Assembly (NCBI GenBank): GCA_031254875.1 | Contig: JAIRTW010000053.1 | Span: forward strand, 1-35,897 | Source of the DNA: Candidatus Bathycorpusculum termitum | GTDB lineage: Archaea; Thermoproteota; Bathyarchaeia; Bathyarchaeales; Bathycorpusculaceae | Length of the DNA: 35,897 bases | Reading direction: 5' to 3' | Notes under the pieces: model-generated | Database searches by the model: none | What the model saw: the letters and a program-made list of their open reading frames with translations, nothing else | What the model was told of the DNA's origin: nothing | Shown: positions 1-820 of the stretch, in pieces | How positions within the stretch are numbered: position 1 is the stretch's first letter | How the letters are laid out: the number at the start of each line of letters is the position of its first letter | Translations under genes and position numbers: made by a program

Positions 1-820
1 ATTTGAGTAAAGATGTCAGGTGTGGCTATCTTGCCAGAGCTTTAGAGGTGTCAACCATGATGTCGCTTTTAGAAACTACTTTGATTCGGCACGTAAACCA
101 TCCCAATGATGACACACATTACCAGTATCCCACTCAATAACCACGTGTGAGATTTACCAATAACATGACATTCTGAGAGTGTTCACGTTTAGAGAGATTT
201 GTAGCGTAATAGCCTCTGTGAGAGGTCAAGCGGACGGAAATTAATGGTAAAATGCAAGAATTATTCGCGAGAAAAAACGTTAAAAGCGGCAAAGTTATGA
301 AAAAAGGCTCTATCTCCTATACGTGAAAACTCTCGACATTCTTTGGGTAACACCTTGGTAAATGCATCCCAGTCATCGGTGTAGAAGACCCAGTTCTTTA
401 GATGTTTGACTTTGTTGTAGAGCCGCTGGAAGACTGCAATATTACGATGGCCAAGCACCCAAACCACAACGCTCTGTGTGCCACGATCAAGGGCCTTGAG
501 GACCCAAAGCTTGATTTTTTGAACCACAAAAGCCGCCAGCCCATCAACCCAGCTCTTTGATTTCCCCCAAGACCTCTGTTGGAGCTTGATTTGCGCCAGC
601 TTCTACAATCCAGCGATATAGTAGAGAAGGTCAAGTGTCAAAAATATGAGCCAACATGTTAAAAGAAGCCTTCCCAACGAGTAGAGTATGGTGCACAGGG
701 CTTTTTTGGCAATCACACCTTGGATGTAGATAACGGTAAGGGATATTGGATAAGCAAAAGCGAGTGATTTGCCGTAAATCCTAAAAACTGTCGTGCATAT
801 ACCGTAAACGAGGCATTGTA
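1..820 (-). pseudogene. Decayed IS1-family transposase (InsAB'-like), continues past left edge
   Basis: Read on the minus strand, pieces of an IS1-type transposase appear in order but in different frames. Around 780-600 is the helix-turn-helix part (KASFNMLAHIF, then LLYRWIVEAG). Around 560-340 is the catalytic core (KLWVLKALDRGTQSVVVWVL, then VKHLKNWVFYTDDWDAF with the DDE-type acidic pair). Around 174-140 is ECHVIGKSHT, and 112-26 gives RIKVVSKSDIMVDTSK. Right at the left edge, ATPDIFTQ matches the usual IS1 C-terminus. Several frameshifts and stops separate the pieces, so it is dead. The core is also split by a 160-bp insertion at 175-334. Family assignment rests on remembered IS1 sequences. 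No intact terminal repeats of the IS itself were located. Confidence 0.8.
175..334. mobile_element. 160-bp MITE-like element with terminal inverted repeats and 8-bp target duplication
   Basis: The left end reads GAGAGTGTTCACGTTTAG. The reverse complement of the right end reads GAGAGTTTTCACGTATAG, with two mismatches in 18. The element is flanked by identical GACATTCT copies at 167-174 and 335-342, which is what an 8-bp target-site duplication would look like. Removing the element and one flank copy rejoins the IS1 transposase: LPKE upstream meets ECHVIGK downstream. The element has no coding capacity and contains a small inner palindrome, CCTCTGTGAGAGG, at 213-225. It must be mobilised in trans. 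I cannot name the parent transposon. Confidence 0.8.

Follow-up and report, generated by a model that had tools for sequence, protein, structure and literature searches.

The 160-bp element at positions 175-334 of the window (the whole 35,897-nucleotide stretch of DNA analysed) is a MITE that very probably arose by internal deletion of an IS1 of subgroup B1 and was mobilised in trans by the B1 transposase. It belongs to a family of copies with different flanks, 8-bp duplications, uninterrupted sites and ends shared with IS1, from which the family is derived. The mobilisation in trans presumably follows a mechanism like that of IS1 itself.

The window element and its IS1 target

The window is the entire contig C13 of its MAG, and its first base falls within an IS1. 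The features are as follows.

175-334, plus strand (orientation of the left end of the parent IS1): MITE of 160 bp, recognised by 18-bp TIRs, an 8-bp TSD and further copies
167-174, no strand: left copy of the target duplication, GACATTCT, read from the sequence
335-342, no strand: right copy of the target duplication, GACATTCT, read from the sequence
175-198, plus strand: left TIR, GAGAGTGTTCACGTTTAGAGAGAT, matching B1 IS1 ends at 18-20 of 24 positions, B2 ends at 10-13 and group A ends at 8-10
308-334, plus strand: GCTCTATCTCCTATACGTGAAAACTCTC-like right terminal region, the counterpart of the B1 IS1 right end (the L018 IS1 ends in GCTCTATCTCCCTATAGGTGAAAACTCT)
244-306, plus strand: insA relic, the first ~21 codons (MVKCKNY...), frameshifted in the window copy
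1-722, minus strand: decayed IS1 of subgroup B1, split by the MITE (tblastn and blastn)

The termini of the MITE, GAGAGTGTTCACGTTTAG on the left and CTATACGTGAAAACTCTC on the right, form an 18-bp inverted repeat with 16 of 18 positions identical. The two mismatches, the exact length of 160 bp between the outer ends and the identical 8-bp flanks at 167-174 and 335-342 agree with the sequence-only reading. Its description of the element as MITE-like is likewise upheld by the TIRs, the TSD, the multiple copies at different sites and the ends in common with IS1. With MITEs taken as elements below ~400-600 bp that carry no intact transposase, the window element is one, since it is 160 bp long and lacks a transposase apart from a 21-codon relic. 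It had also been called non-coding, which holds functionally; however, the interior retains this relic of the start of IS1 insA.

The minus strand from ~722 to 1 carries an IS1 transposase sequence that covers the middle and the C-terminus of the protein and contains frameshifts and a stop. This copy is truncated by the contig edge at base 1, and its zinc-finger part is missing at the other end. In silico removal of 167-334 (168 bp) generated an in-frame transposase match crossing the junction, with KVLPKE and CHVIGKSHT on its two sides. The alignment with the L041 transposase (73% identity) grew from 58 to 67 residues and its E-value improved from 1.5e-29 to 4.7e-35, as expected from the proposal that excision of 168 bp restores continuity. 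The frameshifts and the stop elsewhere persist after the excision. Thus, the host IS1 is dead beyond the effect of the insertion, and the nesting of the MITE in a dead IS1 is confirmed.

Without its insert, the window IS1 could be aligned over 533 bp with the L102 IS1 (80% identity) and, at 69-75% identity, with five further IS1 copies. The insertion point is continuous in all six, with a single copy of the target (GACGATCT, GACGTTCT, GACGCTCT and similar sequences). These six are homologous copies from other species at different chromosomal loci, and they therefore prove a precise insertion into the IS1 gene rather than a within-species polymorphism. The nested position dates the insertion of the MITE later than that of the IS1. 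Another B1 IS1 (L104:1954-2258, G027:C75) is split by ~300 bp of other DNA, which is bounded by CCTGAATTC and GAATTCAGG and is unlike the window MITE.

Copies, flanks and distribution

The window's own genome holds three MITE copies, with identities to the query of 100%, 93% and 79%. Among 100 relatives searched, eight match the MITE at dozens of places; all eight are other species of Bathycorpusculum, and no match was found in the other 52 genera. G008 and G010 match the window MITE by the 24-bp ends alone, the interior being different, and G008, G010 and G031 represent interior types found beside the window type in Bathycorpusculum. The flanks vary between copies in the own genome and in the congeners. 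Perfect 8-bp TSDs were observed in the window (GACATTCT) and at L012 (CATGATAT), L019 (TTCGCAAA), L016 (GAAAAAGT), L030 (AAAAAGTG) and L007 (AAAAATTC). The expectation of multiple copies with different 8-bp flanks is thus borne out in the own genome and the eight congeners. Of 28 paired ends, 8 are flanked by an 8-bp duplication, which in one case contains a mismatch, compared with 7 of 756 mismatched flank pairs; the 28 take in one obvious chance pair (L116) and a proteobacterial element with a perfect duplication (L167). Many copies have no recognisable TSD, which fits age or recombination.

One family member (L021/L029, G023:C91:20642-20965) is split by another insert of ~150 bp, with the ends ACTTGTATTCAGTAA and TTACTGAATACAG and apparently a 3-bp duplication of TTA, so that the nesting reaches a third level. 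Two species (L003, G000:C105; L015, G023:C69) share a diverged copy at one site, and its flanks are almost identical between them, so this insertion predates the split of the species or moved with its surroundings. The interrupted N-terminus in L026 matched no NCBIfam family.

A scan of the GTDB species genomes with the end pattern yielded 65 stretches, 63 of which belong to records that bear the name Candidatus Bathycorpusculum or Nitrososphaerota archaeon and recurring isolate codes. The bathyarchaeal genus Bathycorpusculum has been described from termite guts, peat, sediments and digesters (PMC10684969), and Termiticorpusculum and Termitimicrobium were described in PMC7886697. The isolate codes together with these two papers, neither of which mentions transposons, suggest that the isolates with matches are termite MAGs. 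The end pattern has no match in IMG/VR that would indicate a viral source. One contig in a Bacteroidales bin, likely misbinned, carries a MITE with the G010-type interior at its edge (L174:1-200, JAITUN010000176.1). A MAG labelled Proteobacteria contains a 152-bp element (L167:5483-5634, also L196, L197 and L198) with near-identical outer ends GAGAGTGTTCACAGATAGAGAGAT and a perfect 8-bp duplication CGTTTATG; two further copies (87-88%) are present in the same genome. None of the four IS1 transposases of that MAG has GAGAGTGTTC ends within the DNA retrieved around it. Since there are several interior types in Bathycorpusculum and a separate proteobacterial 152-bp family, the GAGAGT-end IS1 subgroup might have spawned MITE families repeatedly and independently and thus be unusually MITE-prone, a suggestion that we regard as rather doubtful.

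The IS1 parent and the derivation of the MITE

IS1 transposases were found in 14 of the 32 Bathycorpusculum genomes. Their matches number 45 in a 1.5-Mb MAG and 36 in a 1.8-Mb MAG and are absent from the other 18 genomes, a patchy expansion across the genus that may follow habitat. The copies fall into group A, with ends of the GGTC... type (GGTCATGTC...) and 8-9 bp duplications; B2, with ends GAGAGTATTGCAAAAAGG, GAGAGTGTTTATATTGG or GAGAGTGTTAACTAAG; and B1, with ends GAGAGTNTTCACCNATAGRNAGAT. The MITE termini and subgroup B1 are both of the GAGAGTNTTCAC type, in contrast to the GGTC... ends of other IS1s of the genus, and the 8-bp duplications of the MITEs lie within the 8-9 bp of the IS1 type. 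Full-length B1 copies, the longer transposase-bearing elements with the same ends that had been predicted, are present in relatives (L041, 785 bp; L077, 786 bp; L018, 802 bp). In L041, both the zinc-finger ORF and the catalytic ORF are open, and the two overlap in the -1 frame at A8C (eight A and then a C). The fused L041 protein scores 178.7 bits against the NCBIfam IS1 family transposase model NF033558 (cut-off 100) and 81.3 bits against Pfam PF03400 (cut-off 24.1). The parent type is an IS1 and shares its subgroup with the dead host IS1, which goes beyond what the sequence-only reading had proposed.

Comparisons of the interior point to the same subgroup. In the family consensus, built from 14 copies, the left end is followed by an ATG and in-frame MVKCKNYLPERNVKNGKVMKK, compared with MVTCKQCLSEKTVKNGIIRKK in the L018 IS1. 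The relic peptide scores 62, a value reached in none of 1000 shuffles (maximum 44, taking the best of six frames). Compared with the L018 left end, the interior DNA of the consensus gives a z of 5.8 and that of the single window copy a z of 3.3-3.8, and the last ~27 bp of the MITE correspond to the right end of the IS1 (GCTCTATCTCCCTATAGGTGAAAACTCT in L018). With the relic of the insA start on the left and an IS1 right end on the right, the MITE reads as the left ~135 bp (the insA start and ~21 codons) joined to the right ~27 bp of a B1 IS1; judged from these alignments, its interior as well as its ends descends from IS1. The deletion breakpoint is blurred, as the surrounding sequences are A-rich and diverged.

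An internal deletion in a B1 IS1 would keep both ends of the parent and yield the MITE. The B1 transposase, produced from insA-insB by the -1 frameshift, would then bind the MITE ends in trans and cut them, and the MITE would insert with an 8-bp target duplication, the target in the window being the decayed B1 IS1. An intact B1 IS1 is present in a congener. None was found in the window's own MAG (93% complete; 123 contigs, often broken at repeats), in which subgroup B1 is represented just by a short fragment beside the decayed copy of the window. Thus, the MITE copies of this MAG may be stranded, or the parent may sit in an unassembled repeat. The GTTTAG left-end variant occurs in none of the full-length B1 copies, so the actual parent could be a B1 variant outside the data.

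Two other explanations were weighed against derivation from and mobilisation by B1. The mover might be the other IS1 subgroup of the own genome, B2 (ends GAGAGTATTGCAAAAAGG or GAGAGTGTTAAC), which has copies with long open frames there and agrees with the MITE in the outermost six bases, or an unrelated DDE transposase with 8-bp duplications (IS1595, IS6). However, over 24 positions the MITE ends match B1 at 18-23 (22-23 for the consensus right TIR against the B1 right ends), compared with 10-13 for B2 and 7-10 for group A, and the insA relic follows B1, which makes another mover improbable. As parents, B2 and group A (GGTCATGTC ends) are rejected on this end comparison. IS6, considered for its 8-bp duplication and the archaeal host, was rejected, since the transposase that flanks the MITE, the relatives of full length and the family models point without exception to IS1. 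The majority of MITE copies lack a perfect duplication, as would be expected of an immobile structured intergenic repeat or a chance inverted repeat. However, the perfect 8-bp duplications are ~30 times as frequent as chance would give, the flanks differ, the uninterrupted site is precise and the ends are common with an IS. This explanation has next to no probability left, and immobility is refuted by the uninterrupted sites and the duplications. Derivation from a B1 IS1 is therefore retained.

Comparison with known mobile elements

With this finding, an uncultured archaeal genus has a MITE family whose parent type is identified, and strains of Bathycorpusculum can be compared by a marker of recent mobility; the broader biological effect is modest. 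No description of an IS1-derived MITE family from Bathycorpusculum was found in the accessible literature. That MITEs are internal deletions of ISs is textbook knowledge (PMC3852290; PMC10969869), and the family is a new, biologically ordinary one of a well-known kind.

The de novo search of Kamoun et al. 2013 (PMC3852290, Table 4) yielded eighteen archaeal MITEs from nine families, with lengths of 89-570 bp, parent-like IRs and short DRs. The nearest in form is IS1595-derived (165 bp, DR 8), and none of the 18 is assigned an IS1 parent. As far as found in the literature, IS1 is thus added to the parents of archaeal MITEs; priority as the first archaeal IS1-derived MITE is not claimed, as this comparison covers these eighteen, beside which an earlier study lists 26 families. 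The Sulfolobus MITEs SM3A (164 bp, moved by ISC1058) and SMN1 (320 bp, moved by ISC1733) (PMC3718332) resemble the present family, by description rather than by sequence, in being short, non-autonomous and multi-copy, with TIRs of a known IS and an archaeal host; however, their parent ISs are different. The IS1 family itself (NF033558, PF03400) has the same inverted-repeat ends and 8-bp duplications. The MITE carries the two ends of its parent, and the B1 parent has the zinc-finger InsA and InsB joined by a -1 frameshift. In contrast to the IS1 family, the MITE lacks the transposase, and the B1 ends are GAGAGTNTTCAC rather than the GGTC... of the other IS1 group of the genus.
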